A program made the position numbers and the translations under genes. A DNA stretch of 64,000 nt from assembly GCF_017743735.1 (NCBI RefSeq), contig NZ_JAGHRO010000001.1, positions 806,001 to 870,000 of the forward strand, read 5' to 3'. The DNA is from Shimia sp. R9_2 (GTDB taxonomy: Bacteria > Pseudomonadota > Alphaproteobacteria > Rhodobacterales > Rhodobacteraceae). Positions 37,061-56,301 of this stretch are shown here, in pieces. How positions within the stretch are numbered: position 1 is the stretch's first letter; each line of letters begins with the position of its first letter. The notes under the pieces were generated by a model that was not told where the DNA came from, ran no database searches, and saw nothing but the letters and a program-made list of their open reading frames with translations.

Positions 37061-37072
37061 AAGGATGCGCAG

Positions 37073-38365: not shown

Positions 38366-38440
38366 GCCCGGGTAGCTCAGGGGTAGAGCAGTGGATTGAA
38401 AATCCTCGTGTCGGTGGTTCGATTCCGCCCCCGGGCACCA
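38366..38440 (+). tRNA. tRNA-Phe (anticodon GAA)
   Basis: The gene runs from GCCCGGGTAGCTCAGGGGTA to the encoded CCA. The acceptor stem GCCCGGG/CCCGGGC pairs perfectly, the anticodon stem GGATT/AATCC encloses a GAA anticodon loop, and the T-arm contains GGTTCGATTCC. The 3' part is repeated at the right end of the island (56251-56301), so this is the integration target and is left intact. Confidence 0.97.
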
Positions 38441-38442
38441 TT
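38392..38442 (+). repeat. Left attachment-like site (attL) in tRNA-Phe
   Basis: These 51 bases, from the anticodon arm through the encoded CCA plus TT, are identical and in the same direction at 56251-56301. This is the classic footprint of a tyrosine-integrase element inserted at a tRNA 3' end, with this copy restoring the full tRNA. Confidence 0.92.
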
Positions 38443-38603
38443 ATCAAGCAAGTCAACAGATAATCCCAAAGGCAACCGAATGTTCGCGCCGCCGCATTTT
38501 GTAACTGTGAGCAATGTGATCGTTTTGTGTGTTGAAGACTGCGGTCGACCCCTTCACGTTCCCGCGGCGTAAGCCCCCAAATCAGGAAACATGTGAAGTC
38601 GTG

Positions 38604-39899
38604 ATGTCGCCAACAACTTTCCCTCTCAAGTTTACGAACATACCACCGGGTTTCACGTCGGATAGTCTGGTCAGTGTACCGTACACACTTGCAAAATACA
38701 GTGCAGCAAATGGGCGAAAGTCTCAACCTGTGCTGGCCGGAAGGAACGTTTTTGCTCCATCAATCAATCTAAACGAGTACAACTGCACTGCCGTGGTCGA
38801 TTGGCTCGAAGTTGCGATGGAAACGCCTGCGAACCACCAAGCTGTCAATATCCATAGGTACTTGAACAATGAGCTGAGAGACCTTGGGTCGCCTTCCACG
38901 GTGCATGTATCGGGTCCTGAACGAGAAGCTGGATACAAAGGCCGTCTATTTCTGGTTCGGATTCAGCAGCCGCGCTTGCGCTCAGCCCTTATGTTGTTTG
39001 ACAGGGCAGCAAAGTACTACAACGTCGACGTACCGCACGTAGGATTTCTGAAAGTCAGAGGAATCGAGGTATCCATTGATTTCAAAGCAAGGACTAATCA
39101 GGACCTGTCTTCTGACGAGCGCAATCTCAAGCGGTGGCAGATCCAAGACCTACTCTGGAGACACTTGCGCGTTGAGCCCCGCTTCACTGAACGAGAGAAC
39201 TGTTCACCCAGGTTTGTTCAGATTAGACAGTCGCCGAGCGGACTGAAACGAGCTGGTGCATCGTTTGTCGTTAGGCAGACGTCCCCCAAACCGGGGTCAG
39301 CGATTTCATTGGCCGGTCTCGATGCACATAGTTCTTCGTCTTTGATGCTTGCAGCGTATCATCAACCTCATCTCGACATGACCTACTATGTTGGCTCCAA
39401 CCAGGAAAGCGTTTTGCTGAGGATTATGGACAAATGCTCAGACAGAAGGGATCCAAGCAGGGGTACGAGGGTTGCGTTGCCGGAAGAAGATTGGCGCGCA
39501 AGGATTGAGGTCAGTCTTCTAGCGGAGGACAAAACAACGGGTGTTCCGGCCGCACTTGGCGTAGATACGCTCAGAGATCTGATCGGATTCAGGTTCCGAG
39601 ACATTCGAAAGCCGATGTTTGAGTTCTTTGTCCCTACATTTGATGGAGATGGAACTGCTGCGATTCCAGGATTGGGAACCAAAGTATCGGAGTATGAAGC
39701 GTTCCGACGCGGGGGTGTCTACGGCCTCGATCGCTTGCTCAGATCGCTGCACGTTACTGCGACACAAACGGATCTTCTCGCTGATGGACATTTGCACGCT
39801 CACCCGTTGGGCAAGAAGGGTAAACTTGTCTCCTACGTTGACTTGAACAGCAAACTGGATCGGGCCTTGAAGGCACTTGAGAAGCGCTGGGCTTTATAG
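38604..39899 (+). CDS. Putative replication initiation/relaxase protein (Rep_trans/MobT-like)
   Basis: A 431-residue soluble protein directly inside the left att site. Phrases in the middle and C-terminal half suggest the Rep_trans fold used by filamentous-phage RstA and the MobT relaxases of integrative elements: VVDWLEVAME (their usual DWL entry), then TYYVGSNQESVLLRIMDKCS, and WRARIEVSLL. Several tyrosines are available as nucleophiles, but I cannot assign the catalytic one. I chose ATG 38604; the frame is open to a GTG at 38529. If correct, the island can be replicated or mobilised after excision. The assignment is an inference from a few motifs and could be wrong. Confidence 0.5.
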   Translation: MSPTTFPLKFTNIPPGFTSDSLVSVPYTLAKYSAANGRKSQPVLAGRNVFAPSINLNEYNCTAVVDWLEVAMETPANHQAVNIHRYLNNELRDLGSPSTVHVSGPEREAGYKGRLFLVRIQQPRLRSALMLFDRAAKYYNVDVPHVGFLKVRGIEVSIDFKARTNQDLSSDERNLKRWQIQDLLWRHLRVEPRFTERENCSPRFVQIRQSPSGLKRAGASFVVRQTSPKPGSAISLAGLDAHSSSSLMLAAYHQPHLDMTYYVGSNQESVLLRIMDKCSDRRDPSRGTRVALPEEDWRARIEVSLLAEDKTTGVPAALGVDTLRDLIGFRFRDIRKPMFEFFVPTFDGDGTAAIPGLGTKVSEYEAFRRGGVYGLDRLLRSLHVTATQTDLLADGHLHAHPLGKKGKLVSYVDLNSKLDRALKALEKRWAL

Positions 39900-40408
39900 C
39901 GGAAGGTGAGCGCCGCGGGGGCTGAGGTCACACTGGTTTTCGCAACATTTACTGACGGAATATCCTTACAGAGGGATCGTCTCAAATCCGGTGGAGTGCA
40001 GGTATCCAGCTATACCAGCCTGGCCGATGCGCATAAGGATAGCTATCACAATAGATTGCGTTGCTGCTCAACCCTAATAACTTCAGTATATACATAGATC
40101 TCACTACAAATCAGAACACAGAGATAGACGGAAAAGAGAGTGCAGAAAAACCCACTCACCTTACCACTCTTGCAAGCTTACTCCGTCAGTACACTGCTGT
40201 GATTGATAAACGAAGTGAAAGCGGGCCGGTTAGATGGGATCATTGGAGGCCGCATATCTCTTATTCTCAAGCTCTTGTTTTCCGTCAGTCTGCATTTGCT
40301 TTCTTTGAAACTTGGTCGGTCAATTGAGAGATTTCCATCGGCAGAACGCGGAGCCTTCGGGATTTGAGAAGTTGGAGAATCCATACGCTGTGCATCGGTT
40401 GGAAAAGA
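39900..40408. other. Intergenic stretch in the island, no supported gene
   Basis: 509 bases between the Rep-like gene and the XRE regulator. Short overlapping frames (63 and 88 residues, plus strand) are not backed by ribosome sites or familiar sequence. The base composition is A/T-rich compared with the flanks, as expected of acquired or decaying DNA. Confidence 0.4.
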
Positions 40409-40816
40409 TCAGTTGAGTTTACTCTCGGAGCATTCTCTTACCACTGCCAACAAGTTTTCCAGATATCTCCACAGCGGACCAATGGCGTCGACAATGCCGC
40501 TTGCCTCGGTCGTTCGGAGAAGGCTAAGCAGCCTCATTTCAGTGTCGCTCAGTGGTAATCCGAGAACATCCACCAGAACCTCATGAGTTCCGGGGTGGTA
40601 TTCCTCGATCGCAGTCATGAGGAAAGTCTGCGCGTTGATCTGCAGGGTTTCTGACAGAGCCGGGATACGACCTAACGGGACTCTTGTGATCCCCTGTTTC
40701 ATCATGCTGATGACATTGGCGTTATTCATACCGATCCGGTCAGAGATTTCCTTTTGTGTCATGTCCGACGCGTCAATGGCTTGGGCAAGCATCGTAGCGG
40801 TTGGGCTGGCGGTCAT
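40409..40816 (-). CDS. XRE family helix-turn-helix regulator
   Basis: A 135-residue protein. The N-terminal helix-turn-helix is DMTQKEISDRIGMNNANVIS followed by MMKQGITRVPLGRIPALSET, a lambda-repressor-like fold (about residues 8-65). The C-terminal half is helical with no family I recognise (LGLPLSDTEMRLLSLLRTTE). Such proteins often control excision or transfer genes of islands. It is separated from the next minus-strand gene by 126 bases. Confidence 0.8.
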   Translation of the reverse strand: MTASPTATMLAQAIDASDMTQKEISDRIGMNNANVISMMKQGITRVPLGRIPALSETLQINAQTFLMTAIEEYHPGTHEVLVDVLGLPLSDTEMRLLSLLRTTEASGIVDAIGPLWRYLENLLAVVRECSESKLN

Positions 40817-40942
40817 TTTCTATCACCTTGTGATGTTGTTTCGATGCAATGTGATAGTGCGTTCAGTCACGTCCTTGCCTGAGGTACGTGATAGGACAGA
40901 CCTTGCTTGGTGGGCGTCTCCGTAGGCACGTTCTGCGCGCGC

Positions 40943-41314
40943 TCAGAGCTCTCTGGTGTGATCCGCTGCTTCGGGTGCGGGTTTGTCTTTGCGAAGCTTT
41001 CTGGCTCTCCTCTGCGTGCGTATGGGCGCTCCTTCGCGCCATGCTGCGGTCATTGCATTGACCTCGTCAGAAACCCACAACCGCGCCTGTCTGCGGCTCA
41101 GTTTGTAACGTTTCAGCAATGCTTCGTAGACCGTCAGTGTGTGACGGATGTGATTGGTGACAACGATCCCTGTTGCTTTCGGAAGGGGAGCGTTCTCCCA
41201 TTCCCTTGCCGTAAGTTTCTGGACGAGAAACGGGATCTGATCTTCTGGGCAGCGGGGATATTCGACCGCTAAGTATGCTCGGGCGGTTTCTTCGTCGTAG
41301 GACTGTTTGGTCAT
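40943..41314 (-). CDS. DUF2293-like small protein
   Basis: A 123-residue basic protein. The phrase VTNHIRHTLTVYEALLKRYK, then SRRQARLWVSDEVNAMTAAW, resembles the DUF2293 pattern (HIRH...Y..LL.....R..AR..V...V...W). It has a lysine/arginine-rich tail (RTQRRARKLRKDK) that could bind nucleic acid. The function is unknown. I chose ATG 41314; the frame is open to 41404, but the extra N-terminus (MSAHQLYPPTLAC) looks unrelated. Confidence 0.6.
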   Translation of the reverse strand: MTKQSYDEETARAYLAVEYPRCPEDQIPFLVQKLTAREWENAPLPKATGIVVTNHIRHTLTVYEALLKRYKLSRRQARLWVSDEVNAMTAAWREGAPIRTQRRARKLRKDKPAPEAADHTREL

Positions 41315-41992
41315 GGCTGATTGTCTTGTGCAAATTGCCCAGCTCCGCCCGATATGGAGTCTCAGGCAAGCCAGCGTGGGGGGGTAGAGTTGATGCGCAG
41401 ACATAGTCGGGCACGCTCAGTCCTGTTGCTAGGAAGCGCCTCTATAAGGATTGGGGGCCGGCCAGGCGAATAGGGCAGGGAATGCCTCATATATGCAGAT
41501 ATGGCTGGCTAGGACTTCCTGTCAGAGGGCGTGGCAAGTCATCATTAGAGTGGCGAGCTAGCCTTTCCCTGGTGGGGAGAGCGGCCGGGTTTGGGGCAGT
41601 TGCGCGACCTGCGACTTGTTGATCGCTTTTGAAGACACTTCGGGTGCGCTTCTGGGGAAAGACGCACATTGACCAGTTTGGAACGATGTTGCGTGATGCA
41701 GCTATAGGAGCCAAGCGAAGAGACCGGACTGTGCAAAGTTCAAGCGATTATCGAAAGCGGACCTACAAACTGATCGCGGCGAGCGGTAGCTCAGAGCCCA
41801 TATTGACTTATTCTGCAGCCTGCACGAAAGGAAGCGCTGCGCAGTCAAGCGGACATGATCCGTATCTCGCTAAATCTTCAAGCTTGCAGGTGTCTGTGAC
41901 CATACGAGCCCCAATAAACTCGATCTCAAGCGCTTTCACCACGATTGTGTTTTCAGGGGTACCCCAACGACTTCGCTGCGCGAAGGTTCAAC
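41315..41992. other. Intergenic stretch in the island, probable gene debris
   Basis: 678 bases without a credible gene. A plus-strand frame at 41629-42015 (128 residues) has no ribosome site, no family likeness and runs into the phosphoesterase gene antisense. On the minus strand, directly after the phosphoesterase stop, about 60 codons are open and end at TAA near 41814, but there is no start codon with a ribosome site. I read it as decayed DNA. Confidence 0.4.
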
Positions 41993-42820
41993 TCACTCTG
42001 CAGCGACAGGTTTAGACCAGTCTTCCCATTCTGCGCCGGTTGCGAACAGCGGACCGTCCCAGTTAAACGGGATCTGGTGAATGATCGTCTCTCGGCCTTG
42101 GATCAGAAGAACATGATATGCTGGTTCCATCGGACCACCTTCCAACAATTTGGGCTCTTTCATATCCGGGTAGGATTGATTGCAAGTGGACGGTACGCTT
42201 GAGAATGGAATGCCGCAATAGGTTCCATGGATCGGGGCATGCACATGGCCGAAGTGAATATAGTCGATTTTGGCTTTATGAGCTTCAAGCAAAGCTTTGA
42301 ATCTTGGTCGATCTTCTTTAACCAGCGCAATTTGATCTTCCGCAGGAAGCATGATCTCCATCGGGTTGTGATGAAGGAAAATACGCGCGTGCTCCGCTTT
42401 TTCGAGTTCAGCTTGCAACCAAGCGCACCGATCTGCATCGAAGTGGCCCGCATGGGTCAGCGGCTGGGTGCTGTCGAGATAAATAAAACTGTTGTCTCCG
42501 ATCACTTCTGAATGATTCACAAAACCAAGCGCATCGGTTTCCTGCTCTGGGAAAACGGAAAGGAAAGTCTCGCGGTTATCATGATTTCCTACCAATAGTC
42601 GGACGGGAATGGTTTGTTCGGCCAACACATCACGCAAGGCTTCGTAGGCCTCGCGCTCGGCCCAATGGGTCAGATCGCCGGAGATGACGATGCGCGCCGC
42701 GTCCGAATGATTTTCGTTCACATCATCCAGTGCTTTGGCCAGCCGTTTGTGCGGATTTAGACCGCCCATACGTTCGCCGGGAATGGTGAAATGGATGTCG
42801 GAAATATGGATTACTTTCAT
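41993..42820 (-). CDS. Calcineurin-type phosphoesterase (CpdA-like)
   Basis: A 275-residue metallophosphoesterase. The metal-binding motifs are in order: SDIHF, VISGDLTHWAE, VGNHDNRE, FLHHNPMEI and HFGHVHAPIHG, giving the full dinuclear-metal site. There is no signal peptide, so it acts in the cytoplasm. Family members hydrolyse cyclic nucleotides or glycerophosphodiesters. It is the last gene after a carbohydrate-type ABC importer and is preceded by a hairpin, so I infer that it processes the imported phosphodiester. The nature of the substrate is not shown by the sequence. Confidence 0.88.
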   Translation of the reverse strand: MKVIHISDIHFTIPGERMGGLNPHKRLAKALDDVNENHSDAARIVISGDLTHWAEREAYEALRDVLAEQTIPVRLLVGNHDNRETFLSVFPEQETDALGFVNHSEVIGDNSFIYLDSTQPLTHAGHFDADRCAWLQAELEKAEHARIFLHHNPMEIMLPAEDQIALVKEDRPRFKALLEAHKAKIDYIHFGHVHAPIHGTYCGIPFSSVPSTCNQSYPDMKEPKLLEGGPMEPAYHVLLIQGRETIIHQIPFNWDGPLFATGAEWEDWSKPVAAE

Positions 42821-42844
42821 CGGATCGGCCCCTGAAAATAGAAG

Positions 42845-42871
42845 GCGACCGGCAAAAAAGCCGCCGGTCGC
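42845..42871 (-). terminator. Intercistronic hairpin between binding protein and phosphoesterase genes
   Basis: GCGACCGGC pairs perfectly with GCCGGTCGC. On the minus strand the loop, not the tail, is T-rich. It sits 9 bases after the binding-protein stop and 24 bases before the phosphoesterase start. It probably protects the binding-protein mRNA and lowers downstream expression rather than stopping all transcription. Confidence 0.6.
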
Positions 42872-42880
42872 TTATTGAAA

Positions 42881-44128
42881 TTAGCTGTTTGGCAGCAGGT
42901 CGTTGACTTCTTCAACTAGCTCTTCTTGCAGCTCTTTCATGTCGGTTGCGTCGCCTGTCACGATGCGCTCGATGCTGTCGTAAATCACCTGAGTGATCGC
43001 CAGACCGTTGTCACCAGGGTAAGCCAGCCAGTCGCGCAGCAGTGGCAGCTGATCAACTGCAGTCTGTTTGTTTGGGTTTTGCTCGTAGAAATCAGCCAAG
43101 ATGATCTCGTTGGCCGCTTTGTTCGGAGGCATGTAACCGGTTGTTTTCGCAACTTCAGCTGCACCATCACCGGAAGTGATGTACTTCAGGAAAGTCCAAG
43201 CCGCTTCTTGAACCGCTGGGTCTTCAGAGGTGGACGTCAGCATCGCGGCGTTGCCGCCCGCTGGAAGACCTTTTGGTGTTTCTCCCAGACCTGGGAAAGG
43301 GCCTGTTTTTAGTACGAAGTCACCTTGGGACCGTTCAACCGCGCCCAGTGCAGAGGTGGACCAGAACATCATGCCGATTTCACCAGCAGAGAAAGATGAC
43401 AGCGCCGCTTTCCATTCCAGGTTCTGCATTTCACATTTAGTAAAGATCTCTTGCATTTGTTCCAACGCGGTCAGGGCTTCTGGGCTATCCAGAGTGACTT
43501 TGCCGTTTTCGACAATTGCTTTGTCTTGAGACCACATCAGCGCTTGCATGAACCAGTTGCCAGTGATGTTCCAGCCCCAGAAGATTGGATTTTCGACGCC
43601 GTTTGCGTTCATTGTTTCGCAAGCCGCGATCACTTCGTCCCAAGTGGTCGGCATCTTTTCGATACCGGCCGCGTTCAGAACGTTCATGTTGTAGTAGCCA
43701 ACAGGCAGTGAAACGGAAAATGGCAGACCGTGCACGTTGTCACTGAATGTGGACAGGGACAGCATTGCGTCGTGGTAACCGTCTTTTTCAAAGTCAGCTT
43801 CGCCCGCGATGAACGGCTCAAGGGACTTCGCAATGCCTTTTTCAACCAGGATCTGTTGACGGTTCAGGCCTTGCATAGTGACGTCTGGCAGGTTGCCAGA
43901 AACCGCTTCGCGCAGGATGGTGTTTGTGCCGTCCTCATAGGATTCATAAGTCGCACGGAACTTAACGTCGATGTTTGGGTGCGCTTCTTTGAACGCAGGC
44001 ATCATCGCTTCGTAGGTGACGTCGAAAAGGTGGCTGTAAGGGTAGGCAAATTCGATGGTCACTTTGTCGTCTGCCCATGCAGCAGAGGCAGAGAGGATCA
44101 ACGCCATTGCAGTTGTGGTGAATTTCAT
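42881..44128 (-). CDS. Extracellular solute-binding protein (family 1, UgpB-like)
   Basis: A 415-residue periplasmic binding protein with a signal peptide (MKFTTTAMALILSASAAWAD). The mature part starts DKVTIEFAYPYSHLFDVTYE, like UgpB-type proteins that bind sn-glycerol 3-phosphate or sugars. Family landmarks include FSAGEIGMMFWSTSALGAVE and EEAWTFLKYI-like helices near residue 320 (AAWTFLKYITSGDGAAEVAK). Ligand preference is unknown. It follows the second permease gene in the operon ATPase-permease-permease-binding protein-phosphoesterase. Confidence 0.9.
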   Translation of the reverse strand: MKFTTTAMALILSASAAWADDKVTIEFAYPYSHLFDVTYEAMMPAFKEAHPNIDVKFRATYESYEDGTNTILREAVSGNLPDVTMQGLNRQQILVEKGIAKSLEPFIAGEADFEKDGYHDAMLSLSTFSDNVHGLPFSVSLPVGYYNMNVLNAAGIEKMPTTWDEVIAACETMNANGVENPIFWGWNITGNWFMQALMWSQDKAIVENGKVTLDSPEALTALEQMQEIFTKCEMQNLEWKAALSSFSAGEIGMMFWSTSALGAVERSQGDFVLKTGPFPGLGETPKGLPAGGNAAMLTSTSEDPAVQEAAWTFLKYITSGDGAAEVAKTTGYMPPNKAANEIILADFYEQNPNKQTAVDQLPLLRDWLAYPGDNGLAITQVIYDSIERIVTGDATDMKELQEELVEEVNDLLPNS

Positions 44129-44212
44129 GTTCTTTCTCCATAGGTTGACCGCCTTTGGTTTGGCGACTGCGGCGGTCTTCTCAAGTCATCCCTGCTGGGA
44201 TTGCGTTGGTAG

Positions 44213-44230
44213 GCCGGGCTTTGGCCCGGC
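44213..44230 (-). other. Hairpin between permease and binding-protein genes
   Basis: GCCGGGC-TTTG-GCCCGGC overlaps the end of the permease stop region. It lacks a T-run on the minus strand, so I read it as an mRNA-stability stem ahead of the binding-protein gene rather than a terminator. Confidence 0.4.
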
Positions 44231-45193
44231 TTACTTCATTCCGGATAGGGTGATCCCCTCGATAAAGCGGCGCTGCGCGACCAAGAAAGCAACGATCAGC
44301 GGTGTGACGATCACGGTGGCGGTGGCCATCATGGGGCCAAAGAAACTGCCGTCGCCGTCGCCTTTGAATTCGCGCAGGCCTAACGGCGGTGTGAATAGAT
44401 CGCGGTTGCCGGTCACAACGATGCGCGGCCAGAAATAGTCGTTCCAATGGGCGACAACAGAAAAGATCGCAAAAGCCAAAAGTGCTGGGATCGCAGTGGG
44501 CAGCATCACGCGCCACACGATGGCGAATTCCCCCATGCCGTCCATACGCGCCGCATCAATCAGATCATCCGGCACGGTCATAAAAAATTGACGCATCAGG
44601 AAAATACCAAAGACAGAGATCGTCCAGGGCACAACCAACGCGGCATATGTATTCGTGAGCCCCACTTTGGCAAGCATAATGTAGAGCGGCAGGGCAATGG
44701 CGTGCACAGGGATCAACAGGCAGAACAGCACCAGGGAAAACACCGCCTCGCGCCCCCAGAACTTAAGCTTTGCTAGTGCGTAGGCCGCAGGTAAGGCAAC
44801 CACAATCTGGATCAAAAAGATCGACGCGGTTACGATCACACCGTTGAGCAAGTAGCGCAGCAAAGGTGCTTCGGTGAAGGCTTTGGAGTAGTTGAAAACA
44901 ATTGGGCGCATCTGGCAGTCGGCCACCGCTTCGGCTACCAAAGCATCCCGAATTTGACTGTCGGTCTGGTTTGGAAAGCGCGGTGCGGCGGCTGCGACGT
45001 CATCACGGTTTGGATCGCGCAGCTTTACGCAGCGTTCATCGACCATCATTTCCTGTCGCCCAAAGAAGCCACCTTCACCTCGGTCGATCTCGCCCGGAGA
45101 TTTGAACGAATAGCTGACCATCATATAAAATGGAGCGATCACCACGAGCGCGCCAAGGATCAGAATAAGATGCTTCCAAAGATCGCGTGTCAT
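44231..45193 (-). CDS. Carbohydrate ABC transporter permease, MalG/UgpE type
   Basis: A 320-residue inner-membrane permease with about six membrane segments. The EAA loop that docks the ATPase is read as AARMDGMGEFAIVWRVMLPT. Between the first two membrane segments lies an unusually long extracytoplasmic insertion (about residues 36-95), which makes it about 40 residues longer than typical MalG-type subunits. It overlaps the first permease gene by one base, so the two are co-translated. Confidence 0.9.
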   Translation of the reverse strand: MTRDLWKHLILILGALVVIAPFYMMVSYSFKSPGEIDRGEGGFFGRQEMMVDERCVKLRDPNRDDVAAAAPRFPNQTDSQIRDALVAEAVADCQMRPIVFNYSKAFTEAPLLRYLLNGVIVTASIFLIQIVVALPAAYALAKLKFWGREAVFSLVLFCLLIPVHAIALPLYIMLAKVGLTNTYAALVVPWTISVFGIFLMRQFFMTVPDDLIDAARMDGMGEFAIVWRVMLPTAIPALLAFAIFSVVAHWNDYFWPRIVVTGNRDLFTPPLGLREFKGDGDGSFFGPMMATATVIVTPLIVAFLVAQRRFIEGITLSGMK

Positions 45194-46155
45194 CAGTAGT
45201 GCACCTTGCGCTCCACCAGCCAGCGCTGGATCAGAGTCAGAAACATCACAAAGACCAAGAACAAAACGGTAATGGCAGAACCGATCCCGATGAGATTTTG
45301 TTGAACGCCTTTTTCAAAGATCGCGAACATCATCACATAGGTTGATTTGTTCGGCCCGCCGCCTTGCGGCCAGAAGGCTTCGATGGTGTCAAACACTTGA
45401 AAGGCGCGGATGCACGAAATGGTCACGACAAATACAGTCGTCGGTCCAAGTGCTGGCCACGTTACAAGGCGGAAGCGTTCCCAACCAGATTTCGCCCCAT
45501 CTATTTCAGCAGCGTGGTACAGTTCCCGATGCACGCCGGTCAGGCCAGCAAGGTACAACACCATATTGAACCCAAACCCTTGCCAGACGCCGATAAAACA
45601 GATCACCCAGATCGCGTAGTCTCTATCTCCGAGCCAAAGCGGAAACCGGTCCCCACAACCTTTCTTTAGAAAAGGAATGATCTCAAGAATTGTCCCGCAG
45701 GACATTTTAAGGGTGTGGTTGACCATGCCAATTGACGGATGCAACATGAATTCCCACGCGATAGCCATAGCCAACAAGGTCGCCATCACCGGCAGGAAAA
45801 AAATGGTTTTGTAAAGATCGCCGATCCTGCCCAAAGAGTTGATCAATAGCGCAGCCCCTAGTCCCAGACCAACCGACAAAGGCACCACTGTGACCACATA
45901 GGTAAAGGTGGCGATGAACATCTTTTCATAGGTCGAACGAGAAAACAGACGTTCATAGTTTTTTGCACCGACCCAATTGAAGGTGTCATTGCCGAGCGAA
46001 TAATCTGTGAAAGATAAAATTCCGGCGATCACGACTGGGACCAACAGGATCAAGACCATCAATCCAAGCGCAGGGGCTGTGAGCCACCATGCCGTGCGGC
46101 ACTGTGCGGTTTCCGCAGAAACAATCACGGGCGTATGGGTTTCCGCAACGGCCAT
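45193..46155 (-). CDS. Carbohydrate ABC transporter permease, MalF/UgpA type
   Basis: A 320-residue permease with about six membrane segments (for example LGLMVLILLVPVVIAGILSF near the N-terminus). The EAA-type loop is YHAAEIDGAKSGWERFRLVT. I chose the ATG at 46155, because only one base separates it from the stop of the ATPase gene; the frame is open to 46455 but that part is antisense-like and overlaps the ATPase gene. It should pair with the MalG-type subunit as a heterodimeric channel. Confidence 0.9.
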   Translation of the reverse strand: MAVAETHTPVIVSAETAQCRTAWWLTAPALGLMVLILLVPVVIAGILSFTDYSLGNDTFNWVGAKNYERLFSRSTYEKMFIATFTYVVTVVPLSVGLGLGAALLINSLGRIGDLYKTIFFLPVMATLLAMAIAWEFMLHPSIGMVNHTLKMSCGTILEIIPFLKKGCGDRFPLWLGDRDYAIWVICFIGVWQGFGFNMVLYLAGLTGVHRELYHAAEIDGAKSGWERFRLVTWPALGPTTVFVVTISCIRAFQVFDTIEAFWPQGGGPNKSTYVMMFAIFEKGVQQNLIGIGSAITVLFLVFVMFLTLIQRWLVERKVHY

Positions 46156-46156
46156 G

Positions 46157-47308: not shown

Positions 47309-47359
47309 CTGATTCCCCCATCAGTTGGCGGAAGACCTAAAAGGCGAAGGCGAAATTCC

Positions 47360-47371: not shown

Positions 47372-47418
47372 TTAGTGAAACCGATAGCTGATAGCGAAAA
47401 TGGCGGAAGGAGGCTCCG

Positions 47419-48557: not shown

Positions 48558-49058
48558 TCAGAAGTCTTTGTAGGTGAGGCCTGCGCTCCACTTCTCAACA
48601 TAATTGCCTATCCAAACTAGAAAGGAGGCTCCTACCAATTCCACCGTGCCGAAGTCATGATCCCAGAAGTAGACGGGTGCTGACGCAACGGTATCACCTC
48701 GAAGATCCGCGATGTCGAAGCAGAATTTGTTGCCCATGCTGTCGTTCCCAATGGCGATTAGGTTCTTCGGCATACCGATCTTCCACCAGCCAGTTGATAC
48801 TTCTATAATGTCATGGGGAGCGTAGAGGCCAGAAAGATCGTGGAGATCAGCCTCCCGCTCATCAATCGCCTCGAGCAAGGCAAGTGTCGGGCTTGGCAAA
48901 CCTACCGATAGGACCTCCGCTTTGTAGTCTTCAGGAAACCGGATGCCGAGGGTTGTCTCTGCGTCATTCAGTTCTGAATGATTGACTTTCACCGGGGGAT
49001 GATCTGGGTGGCTCCATTGAGTGAAGAAGGCCAGAAGGATGCCACTAATAATATCCAT
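48558..49058 (-). CDS. SMI1/KNR4 family protein (immunity-protein fold)
   Basis: A 166-residue protein. The SMI1/KNR4 pattern is readable: ELNDAETTLGIRFPEDYKAE, GMPKNLIAIGNDSMGNKFCF, and SFLVWIGNYVEKW near the end. In bacteria this fold mostly serves as immunity against contact-dependent or polymorphic toxins. No toxin gene is adjacent. I chose ATG 49058 with GAGG upstream; the frame is open to 49109. The N-terminus (IISGILLAFFTQW) is hydrophobic but short. About 260 bases on its 3' side and 660 bases on its 5' side are non-coding, so it stands alone. Confidence 0.75.
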   Translation of the reverse strand: MDIISGILLAFFTQWSHPDHPPVKVNHSELNDAETTLGIRFPEDYKAEVLSVGLPSPTLALLEAIDEREADLHDLSGLYAPHDIIEVSTGWWKIGMPKNLIAIGNDSMGNKFCFDIADLRGDTVASAPVYFWDHDFGTVELVGASFLVWIGNYVEKWSAGLTYKDF

Positions 49059-49720
49059 GATCGCCTCTATGTGAAAGAATATCGAAGGTACATTATTATC
49101 AGATCGCAAGATCGCAAGGCGATTTGAGTTCGTTTAGGGCCTTCTCTTCACTGCTGAAGGTCCCCAAATCCAACCGTCCGACGCGACGGCGGTTTTTTCA
49201 CCAGTATCGACCTTTTCTGACACAGCAGAAGTCTCCGAAGCCGACTTTAGAGCAGCCGCAGCGAAAGGGTGTTCTGTCCGCGCAGCAGACCTTCGGGCGA
49301 AGCGCGACCCTTCGCCCTAACAAGTAGTTGGGTAGGGTCTGCCTAGGGCTGGTGCCGGCAGTGCGCTACTGGTCATTCGTGCTAATTTTGCTAAAAGCAG
49401 TGTCTACCGCTTTGTTGCTCGTTGCGCTCAATCTTGTGAAGCTTGCTGGATGCTGATCTGTCAGCCCCCCAGTTACTCGGAGACCATGTGGGCGAGAACC
49501 TAACAAGCTGCGCCTCTTCCGCCTTGTGCGCGAATAGGGCGGAATCACCAAGGGGAAAGCACGGGATTCTCAGGGAGTTTTGTAGGCTTTTTCAGGTAAG
49601 CGAATGTTATCTGAGCGTCAGGGCTTTTAATTGAAGGATTTCTCCTCAAAAGCCCAGTATAAGCTTTGGTGCCATTTCGGCAGAAGCTTTAAACAACCTG
49701 CCAAACCGACAACTCAACTC
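49059..49720. other. Intergenic stretch in the island, decayed or non-coding
   Basis: 662 bases with no supportable gene. A plus-strand frame at 49124-49327 (67 residues) is basic and of low complexity, without ribosome site. The text around 49250-49320 resembles the GC-mixed debris often found in Roseobacter accessory DNA. Nothing here explains a toxin partner for the SMI1/KNR4 gene. Confidence 0.4.
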
Positions 49721-50473
49721 TTACACTGCGTCTCTTTCCCGCATAGAGGCCTTTGCTCTTGCTGCAAGTGTTTCCTCATCTCCATCGACTTCTTCCAGGC
49801 GCTTCAGTAGGCGTCTGACGCCTGCCGGTCCCCATAGATTACCGCGACTGGTGCGCAGCCCTTCGTTATTGGCAGCATCCGCTATCGCTTGGAGTGGCGC
49901 GCTTCCAAGTGTTTGTTTGAGGCGGTCGCGTACTTCGGCAAGTTCATGAGCTTTGCGGTCCGCTGTGTCGGATCTCACCTTCCTGGAAGCATGGACTGCG
50001 TCTTGCGTATTCAGGTGCCGCTCTGCCTTCGGTATCGCTTTTCGGGGAATAGGTGTCCGGACATATCTGACCGGTCTCTCAGCCAGACACAGTTGCCTCA
50101 GCAGGGTTTCAGGGAGCTCACCCAGAAGTTTGCCTGTCTTGAGATCCCTGATGTTTTCCTTGAATAACAACAACTCTTCAAGAAGTGTCACGGTGTTATC
50201 GCCAGAATAGTGGGCAAACAGTCGGCGAAAATCGTCGATGATAACTGCGCTACTTTGTTCTCTCACACTCTCTAAGAGTTCTTGCAATGTTGGCAGATCG
50301 GTCAGCGATTTGTAGCTGCGAGAATGGTCGTAGAATACGCGCAGCTTTTCGGCGGCTCCCAACTCATTTGCCACGCCTTGAAGATTGGCGAGTTGTTGCT
50401 TGGCTGATGGGTGCTGTTGGATAGATCCATTTGGTTTTGGACCGTGGGTGAGTAGGGCATACGCTGGTATCAA
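49721..50473 (-). CDS. Serine-recombinase-like protein lacking the catalytic serine
   Basis: A 250-residue protein that reads like a shortened resolvase/invertase. The N-terminal part has YALLTHGP where active enzymes have YARVS, then SAKQQLANLQGVANELGA and SLTDLPTLQELLESVREQSS, which follow the resolvase pattern, and DDFRRLFAH in place of DRLxR. The C-terminal part (ADAANNEGLRTSRGNLWGPA, then VRRLLKRLEE) resembles the DNA-binding recombinase domain. The catalytic Ser and one catalytic Arg are missing, so it is probably a DNA-binding partner or directionality factor. It starts with TTG and is divergent from the integrase, 190 bases away. Confidence 0.6.
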   Translation of the reverse strand: MIPAYALLTHGPKPNGSIQQHPSAKQQLANLQGVANELGAAEKLRVFYDHSRSYKSLTDLPTLQELLESVREQSSAVIIDDFRRLFAHYSGDNTVTLLEELLLFKENIRDLKTGKLLGELPETLLRQLCLAERPVRYVRTPIPRKAIPKAERHLNTQDAVHASRKVRSDTADRKAHELAEVRDRLKQTLGSAPLQAIADAANNEGLRTSRGNLWGPAGVRRLLKRLEEVDGDEETLAARAKASMRERDAV

Positions 50474-50663
50474 CGGGTTCTCTTTATGTTGTGGCTACAT
50501 AAACGCGAGGATTGGAGGTGTATCTGGCGGGCTGTTCTGCTTCAATCTAAGAAAAGTGATGCATTTTGGCAACATTTGCGGAAAATATTCGGAAATCGCC
50601 CGAAGGCTTCGAGGCCGATTACTAGCACAGATCGGTCAAGAACTAACCAAGGGAAAGATCCGC

Positions 50664-51611
50664 ATGTCCAAATCATCAAAAACCGTATCTGACGCGTGCC
50701 AAAGCTGGCTGAAAACCTGCCAGCGCAATGAGCTTGAGCGCTCTACAATGAAAGCCTATCGCAGCCATGTGCGCATCCATATTGAACCGAAGATAGGAGG
50801 TCTCTTGCTCGCGGAGCTGTCGCGTGGCGATATCCGGGATTTCATGGATGATCTACTTGATGGTGATGTGTCGCGTGCGCAGGTGAAGAAGATCATGGTG
50901 AGCCTCAGAGCCATTTTGACCGAAGCGGTTGAACGCGAATGGGCCAGCCACAACGTTGCAACCGAAGTGAAGCTTAAGCGCAGCTCCCGCGTCGATGGCA
51001 AGCGCGTGGATGTGCCAACCAAGGCAGAGATCAGAACGATCATAGCGAAAGCGCCTGCGTCACATCGGGCCATGTTCATCACAGCTATCTTCACGGGCAT
51101 GCGGATCTCTGAATTGAGGGGCCTGACATGGGGTGCGATCGATTTTGATCGGCGCGTGATCCAAGTCCGACAGAGAGCAGATGAATACTGTGAAATCGGT
51201 TTGCCGAAGAGCCGTGCCGGCACACGTGAGATCCCAATGGCCCCGACTGTCTTTGAAGAGCTTTGGGAGTGGAAGGCTAACGCGCCTGAAAGCAAGCTGG
51301 ATCTGGTGTTCCCAAATTCTGTCGGCAAGGTGCAGAACTATTCAAACATCTACAACCGCGTGTTCAAACCGATGCTTGTCAAAGAGGGTATCGTTGATGA
51401 AATGGGGGAGGCCAAGTTTGGCATCCACGCCCTTCGCCATGCGGCAGCGTCTTTGTTCATCGAGCAAGGCTGGAACCCCAAGAAGATCCAAACACTGCTT
51501 GGTCACGCTTCCATCACGATGACAATGGATGTCTATGGACATCTGTTTGAGAACGCGGAAGAGGACGTTTCAATGTTTGAGAAGTTGGATGCCGAGCTGA
51601 TGGCGGCCTGA
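50664..51611 (+). CDS. Tyrosine-type site-specific recombinase/integrase
   Basis: A 315-residue integrase with an N-terminal SAM-like core-binding domain (about residues 5-90) and the C-terminal catalytic domain. The catalytic set is complete: Arg in GMRISELRGL, His/Arg in IHALRHAAASLF, His in LLGHASITMT and the nucleophilic Tyr in MDVYGHL. It should carry out integration and excision at the tRNA-Phe 3' end. I chose ATG 50664; an in-frame ATG at 50559 is an alternative. It stands in the middle of the island instead of beside a repeat, which is unusual. Confidence 0.9.
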   Translation: MSKSSKTVSDACQSWLKTCQRNELERSTMKAYRSHVRIHIEPKIGGLLLAELSRGDIRDFMDDLLDGDVSRAQVKKIMVSLRAILTEAVEREWASHNVATEVKLKRSSRVDGKRVDVPTKAEIRTIIAKAPASHRAMFITAIFTGMRISELRGLTWGAIDFDRRVIQVRQRADEYCEIGLPKSRAGTREIPMAPTVFEELWEWKANAPESKLDLVFPNSVGKVQNYSNIYNRVFKPMLVKEGIVDEMGEAKFGIHALRHAAASLFIEQGWNPKKIQTLLGHASITMTMDVYGHLFENAEEDVSMFEKLDAELMAA

Positions 51612-51715: not shown

Positions 51716-52000
51716 CTAGGAAAGCCGCGAACAGCCCTGAAGCCCGGCGGGTAAAACGAGCCATGCTCCCTTTTGGTACAGTTGAATGGCCAGACCCGCA
51801 TTCTCGGACGCCAGTGTCACGCTAAAAGGTGAGGCCGACAAAATCGCCACATCTTTTGGCATGCGCTCTAGGAAATCTTGGCTGGGAAACACGACCAACG
51901 CAGCAGGTGCATCATCGGTCAACAGGGTTACCGCCCCAAGAATACCCAGCCATCCAAACAAAAGCAGCACCAGTGACAACAAAACGCTTCTAGTAGTCAT
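51716..52000 (-). CDS. Small membrane-anchored protein, 94 residues
   Basis: A short protein with an N-terminal membrane segment (VLLSLVLLLFGWLGILGAVT) and an exported tail with a single cysteine near the end (LQGCSRLS). No lipobox is visible. I do not recognise the family; the tail (PSQDFLERMPKDVAILSASP) has the look of a regulatory or sensor domain. It overlaps the preceding gene by 11 bases and is the last gene of a five-gene overlapping operon. Confidence 0.65.
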   Translation of the reverse strand: MTTRSVLLSLVLLLFGWLGILGAVTLLTDDAPAALVVFPSQDFLERMPKDVAILSASPFSVTLASENAGLAIQLYQKGAWLVLPAGLQGCSRLS

Positions 52001-53042
52001 GGATATGCTCTAGCCGCTGAGTTCCATCTTGCAGCGCTCGCAGATCAGAGGCCAGGTTCGCAACCTTTGTCAAAATTATGTGCCGATGGCTTTCAAAACC
52101 CTGCCTGGCATCGCTGTAGATCGCATTAGGTTGGGTATCACTTTCTGAAATAGTCGTGAACATGATGTCATCATTTCCTGCGATCTCGACAAACTCAACG
52201 CCAATACTTGCCATTTCCAAAATGAGATGTGTGAGTTCGCGGTAACGTATCGTTTCGATTTCGATGCCGAAACGTGTTTTACCGACAACGGTCACCCCAT
52301 TGAAACGTTCCAGCGTCTCGGGTGAAACGCCATCAACAATCATGCGCAGGGTGAGCGCGTCAGCGCCAACGCCCGCAACAGCGGCGTCTATCACTTTAGC
52401 GTAGGCGGCTTTGGTGCGATATTCTAACCCCAAGGCAATCCGTCGCTCGCGGTCTCTCAGTTCTTTTGCGTCCTCCTCTGCAAGAGCCTGCGCGTCCGCG
52501 AGGAAATCCCATTTGTACCAAGGCACCTGTTGAAGAAAAGATGCGTACTCTTTCGCCTGTTGCGCTGAAACGTCGTCCAGAATGGCTCTGGAGGGACCAC
52601 GGAGAGCCGAGAAAAGACGACCAAATGTTTCTTCGTAGGCTGCCTTAGCCAACAACTCAGCCGTGAAGCTTACGCCGATCACGTAAACCATTTGCTTCGT
52701 CGCGCCTTCAATAGGCCCAAGAGTACCTGACGCCTGAGACATGGTGCACACCGAGCGCCAGAACCCCGAAATACCTTTGAGAAACTGGTAGTCATGCGGG
52801 TCGCCTGTTTCGATGACGCGTGCGTAATCTTCATAGGCGTGAACAATATGCCATTCCGGATAGGTCAAGAGCGTGCGTGATTCAGCACGGTGATGCATTT
52901 GGTCCAAGATCGGTTTGCGCGAGTCCGCCTCTCCGGTTGGTCGGCACATGGTCTCTGAATACACAACTGGGGATAAGAGCGCCAGGACACCTACAACGGC
53001 AACTGCAGTCAGCCTCAAGAGCCATCGCAAGAATAGTCTCAT
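51990..53042 (-). CDS. Membrane-anchored protein of unknown function
   Basis: A 350-residue protein with a single N-terminal membrane segment (FLRWLLRLTAVAVVGVLALL), the rest probably periplasmic. Phrases such as TLLTYPEWHIVHAYEDYARV and GISGFWRSVCTMSQASG suggest a conserved but unnamed family. I know no function. ATG 53042 overlaps the stop of the membrane protein before it by 4 bases, and the operon continues with the small anchored protein. An open frame to 53075 is a weaker start. Confidence 0.75.
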   Translation of the reverse strand: MRLFLRWLLRLTAVAVVGVLALLSPVVYSETMCRPTGEADSRKPILDQMHHRAESRTLLTYPEWHIVHAYEDYARVIETGDPHDYQFLKGISGFWRSVCTMSQASGTLGPIEGATKQMVYVIGVSFTAELLAKAAYEETFGRLFSALRGPSRAILDDVSAQQAKEYASFLQQVPWYKWDFLADAQALAEEDAKELRDRERRIALGLEYRTKAAYAKVIDAAVAGVGADALTLRMIVDGVSPETLERFNGVTVVGKTRFGIEIETIRYRELTHLILEMASIGVEFVEIAGNDDIMFTTISESDTQPNAIYSDARQGFESHRHIILTKVANLASDLRALQDGTQRLEHIHDY

Positions 53043-53449
53043 TCGGGGCTTCCGATGTTTTTGGCTCCGGCCCAAACGGCAAGGCCACCGAGCGCCAAGT
53101 GTGGGACATTCGCAAGCACGCGACCCAGCGAGAAGTCCAGACCCAAAGAAGCATTCGTCAGAATGCCTAGATCGAGATAGCCATAGCCCGTGAAAAAGCC
53201 AAAAACACCGTCGCCGAGATAGGCAAGGCCAAACAAGATCATGAACATGTGAGCGGCCCTATGGGATTTTAGTCCGGCGATTAATGCCCATAGTGCGGAC
53301 GCGACGTGGAGGGCATCGTCATAGATGTCGAGGGCAAAGATACCGAACGCCAGTCCATTTTCATCCGTCAATCCAGGTACGTAGTTTAAGGATGCTGCGA
53401 TCATCAACGCGACGAAGTAAGCAAGGCTGAGTTTCTGTAGTGACGTCAT
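53039..53449 (-). CDS. DUF4383-like four-helix membrane protein
   Basis: A 136-residue protein with about four hydrophobic segments (for example KLSLAYFVALMIAASLNY and GLAFGIFALDIYDDALHVAS). The order FGIFxxxxxDxxxHVxSxLxxL and the late NVPHLALGGLA resemble the DUF4383 family. The conserved His/Asp in the membrane might bind a cofactor, but that is speculative. It overlaps both neighbours by 4 bases, so it is co-translated with the flavin oxidase upstream. Confidence 0.7.
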   Translation of the reverse strand: MTSLQKLSLAYFVALMIAASLNYVPGLTDENGLAFGIFALDIYDDALHVASALWALIAGLKSHRAAHMFMILFGLAYLGDGVFGFFTGYGYLDLGILTNASLGLDFSLGRVLANVPHLALGGLAVWAGAKNIGSPE

Positions 53450-54933
53450 AACCGCTCCAAATACGTATCCCAGAGGTTGTTGCGCAGGACCAATTTAGGA
53501 TCCAGTTCACGTTTTCTAGCCGCAAATTTGGCGGCCCCGGCATAGGCTTTTGACAGTTGATCAAGACGTGCGTGAGGCCGGTAGGGCAGGTAGTAGGCGC
53601 CACCATCTTGCGATATCCGGTCTATCAGCTCTTCGGTTATGCGTCGCATGTCGGCTTCGGCCCGTTTGGTCATCTCCTGACTGAAAGACATGACGGCGGC
53701 GATGCGAGGTGCTGTGGCATACGATAGGTCGCTCTGGTCGTCTTGAGCCACATAGCGCAGTGTAACATTCAAGAATTCCTGATAGGACGCCGGGATCACT
53801 TCGCGGCAGGCCGTGAGAAAGGCGTCAAATGCGTCGAAACTGACAAAGTACTCATGCAGGATGTCGGTCCGGTCGGGATTGCGATCATCAAGTGTCACAA
53901 CGGGTTCGTTGATCAGCGAATTGCGTGTCACCTCGCCACTGCCGAGGGCTGGCCCTAGTGTCGTTTCATTCCACCAGCGGAAGGATTTCATGGTCTCATT
54001 GCCAAGTTGCGCGCGGTATATGCGACTTGCCACATGCGACATCCAGCCGGAGCCAGACGCAGTTGGAAGGGCTTCTTGATCGTCGGTCTGTCGGTAGGTC
54101 ACAAGTAAGGCCTGCTCAAAGAAGGCGTCTCGCTCTACGTTCAAGCGGCCGTATGCCATCGTAACTGCCGGATCATCAACAGCGGATTGAAAGGCCCTTG
54201 GAAACGCTTCGGCTTTCATTGTTTCAAAGGTCGGGGCCAGGCGGGCATTGGGCACCATGTCAACCTCCAGGTCCACGATCACGCCAACAAGCCCATAGCC
54301 TCCCATGGCCATATTGAAGAGATCTGAATTCTCCGTTGGCGAGCAATTTACGAGATCGCCAGTTGGCAAAATCATGCGAAGTGCGCGCACCGTTGCGCCC
54401 ATCGGTCCGTAAGGCACAGGCCAGCCGTGTGCATTGACGGAAAACGTCGCAGCCACTCCAAAATCATTGTTGGATTGCATAACGGCGGGCGACCACCCGG
54501 TCGGATCAAGTGCTGCGATGACTTCTGACCAACGAGCGCCAGCATGGGTGCGATAGCTGCGATTGCCGGTGTCGATTTCCACGTTACCATTGTCGAATGT
54601 CACGGCTGTACCGTTTCGTGGAATGGCCTGCCCTCCCATCGAGTGACGCGCGGCGCCCACGTTGAAGGCCCTGTTTGCAGTACTAGCTTCGGCAAGTTCC
54701 CTACGTATTGTTGCAATCAATGCGTCGCCTGCATCCTCCGAAAGGACCAGATGCTTGTGGATTGGGGTGGCCGAGAGACCGCTTGCGTCATTCATGACCA
54801 AGCCGGTGGGAGTAGTGTCCAGTCTTGTTGTTCCGTTTAGAACAGGCAGATTGCTGTGAAATGGTCGGGCAGCAAGCCAACCTGCTGCCGCGCCACCAAG
54901 GGCGAGGGCTGCCCGCCGGTTGAAAGGCTTCAT
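53446..54933 (-). CDS. Tat-exported FAD-binding oxidoreductase (aldonolactone oxidase type)
   Basis: A 495-residue flavoprotein. The N-terminus FNRRAALALGGAAAGWLAAR has twin arginines, so export by the Tat route in folded form is likely. A PCMH-type FAD domain covers about residues 60-240 (VGAARHSMGGQAIPRNGTAV, GVAATFSVNAHGWP), and the C-terminus ends NNLWDTYLERL as in L-gulono/D-arabinono-lactone oxidases. The His in AARHS may link the flavin covalently, as in those families. Substrate unknown. It overlaps the hydrolase gene and the membrane-protein gene by 4 bases each. Confidence 0.85.
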   Translation of the reverse strand: MKPFNRRAALALGGAAAGWLAARPFHSNLPVLNGTTRLDTTPTGLVMNDASGLSATPIHKHLVLSEDAGDALIATIRRELAEASTANRAFNVGAARHSMGGQAIPRNGTAVTFDNGNVEIDTGNRSYRTHAGARWSEVIAALDPTGWSPAVMQSNNDFGVAATFSVNAHGWPVPYGPMGATVRALRMILPTGDLVNCSPTENSDLFNMAMGGYGLVGVIVDLEVDMVPNARLAPTFETMKAEAFPRAFQSAVDDPAVTMAYGRLNVERDAFFEQALLVTYRQTDDQEALPTASGSGWMSHVASRIYRAQLGNETMKSFRWWNETTLGPALGSGEVTRNSLINEPVVTLDDRNPDRTDILHEYFVSFDAFDAFLTACREVIPASYQEFLNVTLRYVAQDDQSDLSYATAPRIAAVMSFSQEMTKRAEADMRRITEELIDRISQDGGAYYLPYRPHARLDQLSKAYAGAAKFAARKRELDPKLVLRNNLWDTYLERL

Positions 54934-55928
54934 TGCTGTTCCAACTCCTGTGTGTGTGGCGGCGCCATTGACTTCAACGCATCTATGAGCGCCTCTGCAA
55001 ATTCCGGAGGGGCTTCCAGGTGAGGTATATGGCCAACGCCCTCAAGGATCGTCAATTTTGCGTTTGGTACAAGCGTAGCGAGTTCTTTGCCCTGTGAAAT
55101 TGGCGTAACCTTATCCTCAGCGCCCCAAATGACGGCGAATGGCAGGTCGAGCGCTTCCCAGTTGGTAGGGTCTAAACTCAGGGCATCCCTTGGCGTTGTG
55201 AAGAGTTCCGGAACCCATTTCGAGACAGCATTTGTATAGCCCTCACGCACCATCGGCGCACGCAGCATGTCAATGAGTTCTGGTGTTGCTGCTTCCTTGC
55301 GATACATGAAGTCACGCAGGAAAGTTCCGGTCAGCATTGGATTTGTCGCTGTGATGGAAGTTGCAAGTTCACGAATAGTAGAGTTGCGTAAGAGATGCGG
55401 CGGTTGTTTGGGGTTTCCTCGGTCACTTAGACCAATTGCACCGGATACAACGATATACCCTGAGACCAATTCCGGTCTCTTCAGCACAGCTTCAGAAACT
55501 GGGCCAGCGCCAACTGAATGCGCCACGATGATTGGGCGATCATCCAAAGCTTCCAATAAGGCAATCACTCGGTCGGCTTGCGCTGCTCTGCTGTAGTCTG
55601 CCCTATCGGGATGCTCTGACCAACCAAAGGGAGGCATATCGAATGCCGTCGCCTGATAACCGGCGTTTGAAACCGAGAGCATGGTTTCACGCCAAATCGC
55701 TGACCAGGCTGCGGTTCCATGCGCAAAAACTACGCGAGGCGCGCTTTGTTTGGCGAAATCGACTGTAAAAACGGCGCCTTGAGCGGTGTCAATAAGCTGT
55801 CCCTCTGGAGGGAGACCGACGGAAAATGATACAGCCTCGCGCAGGTGCGCAGCCCATCGGAACGCCAGTATCGTGACGCAGCAAAGCGCAAGCAAAGACG
55901 CAAAGCATCCAAAAATCCACCTGTTCAT
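54930..55928 (-). CDS. Alpha/beta hydrolase, membrane-anchored or exported
   Basis: A 332-residue hydrolase. An N-terminal hydrophobic segment (WIFGCFASLLALCCVTILAF) anchors or exports it. The catalytic triad is readable: Ser in VAHSVGAGPVSE, Asp in WGAEDKVTPI and His in GVGHIPHLEAPPE, with the oxyanion region VVFAHGTAAWS. It is probably an esterase, lactonase or similar; substrate unknown. It is the first gene of the five-gene operon; the open reading frame starts at ATG 55928. Confidence 0.88.
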   Translation of the reverse strand: MNRWIFGCFASLLALCCVTILAFRWAAHLREAVSFSVGLPPEGQLIDTAQGAVFTVDFAKQSAPRVVFAHGTAAWSAIWRETMLSVSNAGYQATAFDMPPFGWSEHPDRADYSRAAQADRVIALLEALDDRPIIVAHSVGAGPVSEAVLKRPELVSGYIVVSGAIGLSDRGNPKQPPHLLRNSTIRELATSITATNPMLTGTFLRDFMYRKEAATPELIDMLRAPMVREGYTNAVSKWVPELFTTPRDALSLDPTNWEALDLPFAVIWGAEDKVTPISQGKELATLVPNAKLTILEGVGHIPHLEAPPEFAEALIDALKSMAPPHTQELEQQ

Positions 55929-56250
55929 GAAACCCTGTTTGTCAGCCTTTCTTTGGCTTTAAGATCGCCTTACTTGCATCAAATACAAGTCAGGTTTCCC
56001 TTGAGTTGCCGAAGATATCGAGCAATGCGCCTAAGAACCCTCTTCTAAGTGTCCGTGCCGCGAGTTCGCTAAGGTGCAACTTGGGTATTTGAGATAGGAG
56101 AGACATGGGCACCGGTCATATCCGCCTTTGAGTCTAAGCCTTGCTCTCAAGCAGAAAGCGAAGCCTTGCAGTGAAGCTGGTCGTCAGGACCGAATGATCT
56201 GTTTATGTAGTGCAAACATAAATGGTAAGTTGTAGCCGGACCATTCTGGA
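55929..56250. other. Right end of the island, non-coding
   Basis: 322 bases between the hydrolase gene start and the right repeat. The hydrolase operon promoter must lie here. No coding frame is supported; short frames overlap the att site antisense. Confidence 0.45.
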
Positions 56251-56301
56251 TGGATTGAAAATCCTCGTGTCGGTGGTTCGATTCCGCCCCCGGGCACCAT
56301 T
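56251..56301 (+). repeat. Right attachment-like site (attR), partial tRNA-Phe
   Basis: An exact copy of 38392-38442 in the same orientation. It holds only the anticodon arm to CCA of tRNA-Phe, with no 5' half upstream, so it is not a working tRNA gene. The identity starts after a G/A mismatch and ends at an A/T mismatch. Confidence 0.92.

Follow-up and report, generated by a model that had tools for sequence, protein, structure and literature searches.

What occupies the DNA between two copies of the 3' end of a tRNA-Phe gene in Shimia sp. R9_2, and how might its integration be controlled? To address this question, we analyzed a 64,000-nucleotide stretch (the window; positions 806001 to 870000 of contig NZ_JAGHRO010000001.1, C11 in our numbering) of the 4.47-Mb assembly of this genome (G000). 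We found that positions 38392 to 56301 are an integrated mobile element of 17.8 kb belonging to a tRNA-Phe-specific family and that, as an island, this element is of an ordinary, standard kind. What is new is a 21-bp palindrome just upstream of one of its genes, dres, that is repeated near the right end of the island. The dres product has the fold of a serine recombinase and is encoded beside and divergently from int, the gene for a tyrosine integrase (Table 1).

A tRNA-Phe island and its relatives

A preliminary description of the window had placed the island between perfect 51-base repeats of tRNA-Phe, with its boundary set to the base and a complete tRNA restored on the left, and each of these points is borne out. 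The two repeats are identical and in the same orientation, with 0 such repeats expected (100 dinucleotide shuffles), and the adjoining bases differ on both sides (g/a on the left, a/t on the right). ARAGORN found a complete tRNA-Phe(GAA) at the left end only and no tRNA at the right copy. The 51 bases are not a dispersed repeat, as their 49-nucleotide core (the repeat without its final TT, used for the assembly and congener searches) occurs just twice in the assembly with up to three mismatches allowed. The G+C content is 52.7% in the island, 60.7% on the left side (1 to 38391), and 55.7% on the right side (56302 to 64000), and thus a step in composition is clear at the left only. Within the island, int is intact and keeps its catalytic motifs; Pfam recognized no N-terminal arm-binding domain in it. 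The repeat pair, the complete tRNA-Phe, the intact int, and relatives at the same site support an integrated element between the repeats, and the integrase, Rep-like gene, and transport, immunity, and redox cargo named as its content all lie within it, the cargo as an ATP-binding cassette (ABC) transporter, a SUKH immunity-type protein, and a flavin adenine dinucleotide (FAD)-binding oxidase. From this anatomy and the relatives, it is almost certain that int carried out integration at tRNA-Phe.

Among the 17 island open reading frames (ORFs) scanned with Pfam, none encodes a type IV secretion system (T4SS) or coupling protein, with shorter ORFs lying outside the scan; because a conjugation module of its own is missing among the scanned ORFs, the island is not classed as an integrative and conjugative element (ICE). 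Phage structural and packaging genes were likewise absent from these ORFs by Pfam and from 10 frames by PHROGs, where nine island genes and one overlapping frame gave matches just to integrase, DNA-binding/regulator, and unknown-function families. PADLOC returned just two weak matches.

We surveyed 24 genomes of the genus Shimia for the 49-bp core, again with up to three mismatches, and found one copy in 17 and two copies in 7. A single copy is no proof of an empty site: two of these 17 genomes (G018 and G023) carry an integrase relative, and a number of copies sit at the end of a contig. Strong int relatives (at least 80% identity over the match) are present in five congeners (G011, G019, G023, G009, and G018); that of G009 lacks the N-terminal part, and that of G018 is cut at a contig end. 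The family at tRNA-Phe includes G011, G019, and G009 in Shimia and G136 and G202 in two other genera, and the sequence indicates that Pelagimonas varians probably carries such islands at tRNA-Phe as well. The core of the island family consists of rep, a helix-turn-helix (HTH) gene, dres, and the divergent int, which lie within one repeat pair in G000, G011, G019, G136, and G202. Cargo varies among islands in two places, between the DUF2293 gene and dres and between int and the right attachment site (attR).

The closest relative is in G011, where a 14.3-kb island bounded by the repeat occupies the corresponding site and has the core genes in common with the window but carries other cargo. Identity to the window is 96.8% over 38443 to 41530 and 95.3% over 49530 to 51607, whereas the chromosomal flank (36127 to 38365) is only 85.9% identical. 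This contrast points to transfer of the island after the species split. The two islands otherwise differ, save for the last ~100 bp with attR; in slot 1, the window has a carbohydrate/glycerol-phosphate-type ABC transporter, whereas G011 has a peptide-type one.

Some islands occur in arrays. G009 contains a tandem array with three repeat copies (L051 and L052); the palindrome accompanies the middle one, and ~180 bp beyond that repeat lies an integrase match without the first 75 residues. P. varians has, besides a complete tRNA-Phe, three additional copies of the 3' end, all accompanied by the palindrome (L127 to L130), and these are probably a tandem array of such islands split over contigs. 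In G202, the repeat at the two ends is 729 bp long and by eye enters an apparent transposase gene (L136 and L137), as though the right end were followed by the left end of a further copy.

A palindrome common to dres and attR

The dres product consists of a resolvase-type N-terminal domain followed by a PF07508-like C-terminal part. In an alignment of 16 rows (15 distinct), R8 and R45 are replaced in all 16 and the S10 position is Thr in 12, the window's dres included (residue numbers, including that of R71, follow gamma-delta). Thus, dres lacks the combination of catalytic Ser and Arg that marks an active serine recombinase. The other islands compared encode a full-length dres with invariant motifs. 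Homologues were found in 36 of 394 genomes of the bacterial family, seven spanning most of the model (E ≤1e-25) and 29 weak (E ≥3e-8), and at class level in two of 385 genomes at E 1e-8, namely, the window's own and one with a partial match. Searches for dres relatives gave no plasmid match and none confirmed in viral contigs.

Across the 64-kb window, the half-sites of the palindrome co-occur at 50483 and 56202 only, with none at the HTH gene. A symmetry statistic gave Fisher P values of 8e-6 for eight attR arms and 0.004 for nine regions upstream of dres (2 of 11 were unanchored and dropped). We judged this statistic too weak for single sequences, and it was superseded by a best-other-match test, in which the dres-proximal site of each island served as a probe against the whole island. 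In all five islands with both ends on examined sequence (G000, G011, G019, G136, and G202), the best other match starts 48 to 64 bp before the right repeat. For only 8 of 2,000 random probes did the best other match fall ≤100 bp from the repeat (2, 1, 1, 1, and 3, respectively, of 400 per island; 21-mers, or 20-mers for G202). Since G000 was used for discovery and G011 is nearly identical to it, the independent tests are G019, G136, and G202; the G136 and G202 probes were chosen from their place upstream of dres before attR was inspected.

A relaxed pattern, written post hoc, fits 9 of 10 attR arms of the family (G000, G011, G019, two in G009, three in P. varians, and G202) and misses that of G136, which matches its own operator at 16 of 21 positions. 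The pattern fits none of four control arms (three repeat copies of other islands and the left attachment site of G000), and two further repeat copies of other kinds, in G022 and G026, have no palindrome by eye. The distance from palindrome to repeat is 48 to 52 bp in 9 of the 10 attR copies and 63 to 64 bp in G202. In P. varians, the three attR sites have the core GTTGyAGCAAC in common with the site at its dres. Collectively, these sequence patterns make a functional site common to the dres/int region and attR very probable.

The site can be attributed to a reader by comparison with dres homologues in other settings. Palindromes lie upstream of homologues that neighbor serine recombinases in G428 (CGTTTGTGTAGTGCTACACAAACG) and G401 (CATTAGTGTAGGCCTACACAAATG), and in G314a, in which int and dres have other genes between them, each of the two is preceded by a similar palindrome copy (26/31). 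These cases argue for dres, rather than int or the HTH protein, as the reader, and it is probable on this comparative basis that dres binds the palindrome. Strong dres matches in G314, G325, and G401 have no tRNA repeat on the stretches examined, and the G428 contig is just 4.6 kb; the attR-palindrome rule thus covers none of these four. In G385, an int relative (57%) occurs with a weak dres-like match but without a tRNA repeat, and G023 has int and a truncated dres with no second repeat copy within 38.5 kb. As separate observations, G314a has a tRNA-like 3' end at 7587, just after int, with operator-like repeats at 8832 and 11779, before int and dres (L146). In G401, the dres-like gene lies immediately downstream of the serine recombinase on the same strand (L140, 16293 to 18397), as in L108 and L112, and a rep relative (24%) is also near it.

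The rep product is 99% identical in G011, 66% in G019, and 58% in P. varians, and its predicted structure matches RepDE/RepSTK1 of the rolling-circle Rep class. Homologues (27%) are present on two Sagittula plasmids; on the one examined in detail, the homologue lies beside an XRE gene, and the plasmid also carries replication initiator protein A. No rep relative was matched in phages, and none was confirmed in viral contigs. It is likely that Rep acts on an excised circle, replication and mobilization taken together.

In the mechanism that we propose, int recombines the 51-bp segment at the tRNA 3' end and restores the full tRNA at the left, as anatomy and relatives show. A dres dimer would most likely bind one copy of the palindrome at its own promoter and the other ~49 bp inside attR; binding would control transcription of dres/int and also shape the attachment-site complex, making dres the recombination directionality factor (RDF) of int. 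In the excised Shimia circle, the palindrome, the attachment core, and rep would lie side by side, and the rolling-circle Rep would nick this circle, for replication or for mobilization by a helper. Taken as a whole, from family element to Rep on the circle, we regard this mechanism as somewhat favored. On sequence evidence, a role of dres as RDF rather than as regulator only is evenly balanced. That a disarmed serine-recombinase-fold protein was recruited as both RDF and regulator of a tyrosine integrase, reading one evolving palindrome at promoter and attachment arm, is a tentative proposal at slightly under even chances; so is its corollary, that two recombinase superfamilies are joined in one integration switch in several Rhodobacteraceae genera.

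Competing explanations

Several results weigh against the proposed mechanism. Scores in the best-other-match test are unremarkable for G136 and G202 (131 and 32 of 400 random probes, respectively, scored as high), so that place alone is telling there, and symmetry alone is weak (P = 0.75 for the G000 attR). The best palindrome lies away from the operator place in three of nine dres upstream regions (P. varians, G314, and G325). The P. varians attR sites match their own operator at 18 to 19 of 21 positions and the Shimia site at 16 to 17 of 21; because the two fits are nearly equal, covariation of operator and attR is mild. On the P. varians contig itself (20.7 kb examined), the best other match (15/21) is no attachment site, and the best other matches of the G314b, G401, and G325 sites are at no known attachment site. 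S10 is kept as Ser in 4 of 16 dres rows and R71 as Arg in 5 of 16, and dres can therefore be called only putatively inactive. For rep, there is no Pfam match even at E 5, and the mean predicted local distance difference test (pLDDT) score of the model is only 64. Furthermore, rep adjoins the attachment site in Shimia islands only; in G136, G202, and P. varians, rep/HTH is 14 to 21 kb from the tRNA. Finally, among the matches listed for the G000 right flank, with up to 12 candidates scored per genome, none is on a congener's tRNA-Phe contig.

A simpler explanation, which we consider unlikely, is an ordinary tRNA island in which int works alone or with host factors, dres merely autoregulates the dres/int promoter, and the attR palindrome silences or roadblocks transcription, either that running over the island end or that of rep in the circle. 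XerC/D-like integrases that lack arm domains can function with few factors, and one palindrome lies directly upstream of dres; from the coordinates, the other would sit ~165 bp upstream of rep once the window island had circularized. The near-fixed spacing in 9 of 10 attR copies, however, suits a recombination complex better than a roadblock, and rep is away from the attachment site in the three genomes outside Shimia named above. Still less likely is that the palindrome serves int, as an arm-type or autoregulatory site, or the HTH protein, with dres as a bystander or decayed resolvase. Both int and the HTH gene are conserved with the site in tRNA-Phe islands, whereas G023 has only a truncated dres and the examined G009 stretches bearing the truncated int yielded none; the palindromes in G428 and G401, where the neighbor is a serine recombinase, the confinement of the window's half-site pair to dres and attR with none at the HTH gene, and the intact dres of the other islands all argue the other way.

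An explanation that is compatible with the proposed mechanism is that the island is an integrative mobilizable element (IME), with rep as a MobT-like relaxase, not a replication initiator, that hijacks helper conjugation. We regard this as possible, at somewhat less than even chances. The fold of rep, its plasmid homologues, and the lack of a T4SS gene among the scanned ORFs fit this model, for which Rep_Trans/MobT proteins provide a precedent in Firmicutes, described in the excerpted text of PMC5704250. Conversely, the same ORFs yielded no coupling protein and no oriT was identified, although no search was aimed at one; rep has no Pfam match, and the examined Sagittula plasmid has an initiator protein of its own. 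It is very improbable that the locus is two tandem islands that lost an internal attachment copy: the 12 kb between int and the tRNA and the arrays in G009 and probably P. varians would agree with this, but the four core genes lie inside one repeat pair in five genomes. Fusion of islands via a degenerate internal repeat was rejected, with no remnant inside the island (best other match, 27/51).

The hotspot, its cargo, and known systems

The preliminary description expected an empty site with one repeat copy in relatives without the island, and this stands for the family but not for G000's own right flank, with which no empty site was found. G006, with one copy, matches the outer flanks of G009 contiguously (left, 83% over 750 bp; right, 95% over 625 bp), and this pair demonstrates precise insertion for the family. 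In the single-copy relatives examined, left-flank blastn matches cross the upstream genes and end within ~10 bases of 38442. Right flanks differ among most of the congeners compared: of 20 flanks, just three pairs have DNA in common over 150 bp, and with the repeat and common island parts set aside, there is no DNA collinear with G011 over ~100 kb right of attR, only two stray matches of <190 bp. Protein matches between G000 and G006 resume on the right side, with some rearrangement, 35.6 kb from the window attR and 13.5 kb from the G006 tRNA. The tRNA-Phe site is a hotspot; in G001, G003, and G008 (L054, L056, and L058), second repeat copies lie 11 to 34 kb away without the palindrome or a close int relative, indicating that the site also receives other islands. 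On the right side of the island, the remainder of the window (56302 to 64000) is variable in the genus and may hold older elements.

Table 1 Features of the island and its ends in the window
Feature	Coordinates	Strand	Basis
tRNA-Phe (GAA), complete, integration target	38366-38440	+	ARAGORN
Left 51-bp direct repeat, attL core within tRNA gene	38392-38442	+	repeat comparison, assembly search
rep, 456 aa, rolling-circle Rep fold (RepDE/RepSTK1 type), core gene	38529-39899	+	fold match, homologues
HTH regulator-like gene, core gene	40409-40816	-	weak HTH profiles; conserved near rep
DUF2293 protein	40943-41404	-	PF10056 E 4e-10; present in G011 and G019
Cargo slot 1, whole	41993-49109	mixed	Pfam/NCBIfam
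Metallophosphoesterase (slot 1)	41993-42820	-	Pfam/NCBIfam
ABC sugar/glycerol-phosphate-type binding protein (slot 1)	42881-44128	-	Pfam/NCBIfam
ABC sugar/glycerol-phosphate-type permeases, two (slot 1)	44231-45193; 45193-about 46100	-	Pfam/NCBIfam
ABC sugar/glycerol-phosphate-type ATPase (slot 1)	46157-47308	-	Pfam/NCBIfam
LysR (slot 1)	47419-48294	+	Pfam/NCBIfam
SUKH immunity-type protein (slot 1)	48558-49109	-	Pfam/NCBIfam
dres, serine-recombinase-fold protein without catalytic arginines, divergent from int	49721-50473	-	fold and alignment
Palindrome TTTATGT-N7-ACATAAA, putative operator, dres/int intergenic, just upstream of dres	50483-50503	.	sequence
int, 315-aa tyrosine integrase	50664-51611	+	PF00589 E 1.2e-25, PF14659, PHROG 1 E 9e-74, catalytic motifs
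Cargo slot 2, whole; not shared with G011	51716-55928	-	
Two ORFs without assigned function (slot 2)	51716-52000; 51990-53075	-	
DUF4383-like protein (slot 2)	53039-53449	-	below Pfam cutoff
FAD-binding oxidase (slot 2)	53446-54933	-	Pfam
Alpha/beta hydrolase (slot 2)	54930-55928	-	Pfam
Second palindrome TTTATGTAGTGCAAACATAAA, putative attR arm site	56202-56222	.	begins 49 bp before right repeat
Right 51-bp direct repeat, attR core, displaced tRNA 3' end	56251-56301	+	repeat comparison, assembly search

Relatives of the window's slot 1 cargo, a metallophosphoesterase (87%) and a binding protein (98%, last 205 residues), occur on a contig of G018 (C13, L097) that is not the contig of its tRNA-Phe; this contig is a possible source or another carrier of the transporter operon.

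Firmicute IMEs, as far as the excerpted text of PMC5704250 describes them, are like the window island in their use of a tRNA 3' end, a direct repeat, a tyrosine integrase, and a rolling-circle Rep-class protein and in that no T4SS of their own was found; in these IMEs and in Firmicute ICEs, Rep_Trans/MobT proteins function as relaxases and as initiators. The window island differs from them in being alphaproteobacterial, in the lack of a Pfam profile match for rep, in its serine-recombinase-fold partner gene, and in the palindrome common to the dres/int region and attR. The logic proposed for dres, that of one element-encoded DNA-binding protein acting at both attachment site and promoter, has parallels in the excerpts on Apl, a regulator and RDF of phage 186 (PMC7498355), and on RdfS, a winged HTH protein of ICEMlSymR7A (PMC11963761). 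In these excerpts, Apl binds direct repeats and RdfS binds without apparent consensus, whereas the candidate dres sites are discrete palindromes, a difference that also counts against the proposed role of dres; dres differs further in its domain layout. Compared with small serine recombinases and resolvases (Sin, Gin, and gamma-delta), dres lacks R8 and R45 and is paired with a tyrosine integrase. No serine-recombinase-like RDF of a tyrosine integrase appears among the titles and abstract openings listed in our literature search.

If dres acts as proposed, it would add an unexpected protein class to the RDFs of tyrosine integrases, and the operator repeated beside attR would provide a sequence rule for recognizing the true island end in draft genomes. 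It would also bear on how whole nutrient-uptake operons are swapped at one tRNA-Phe site in marine Rhodobacteraceae.

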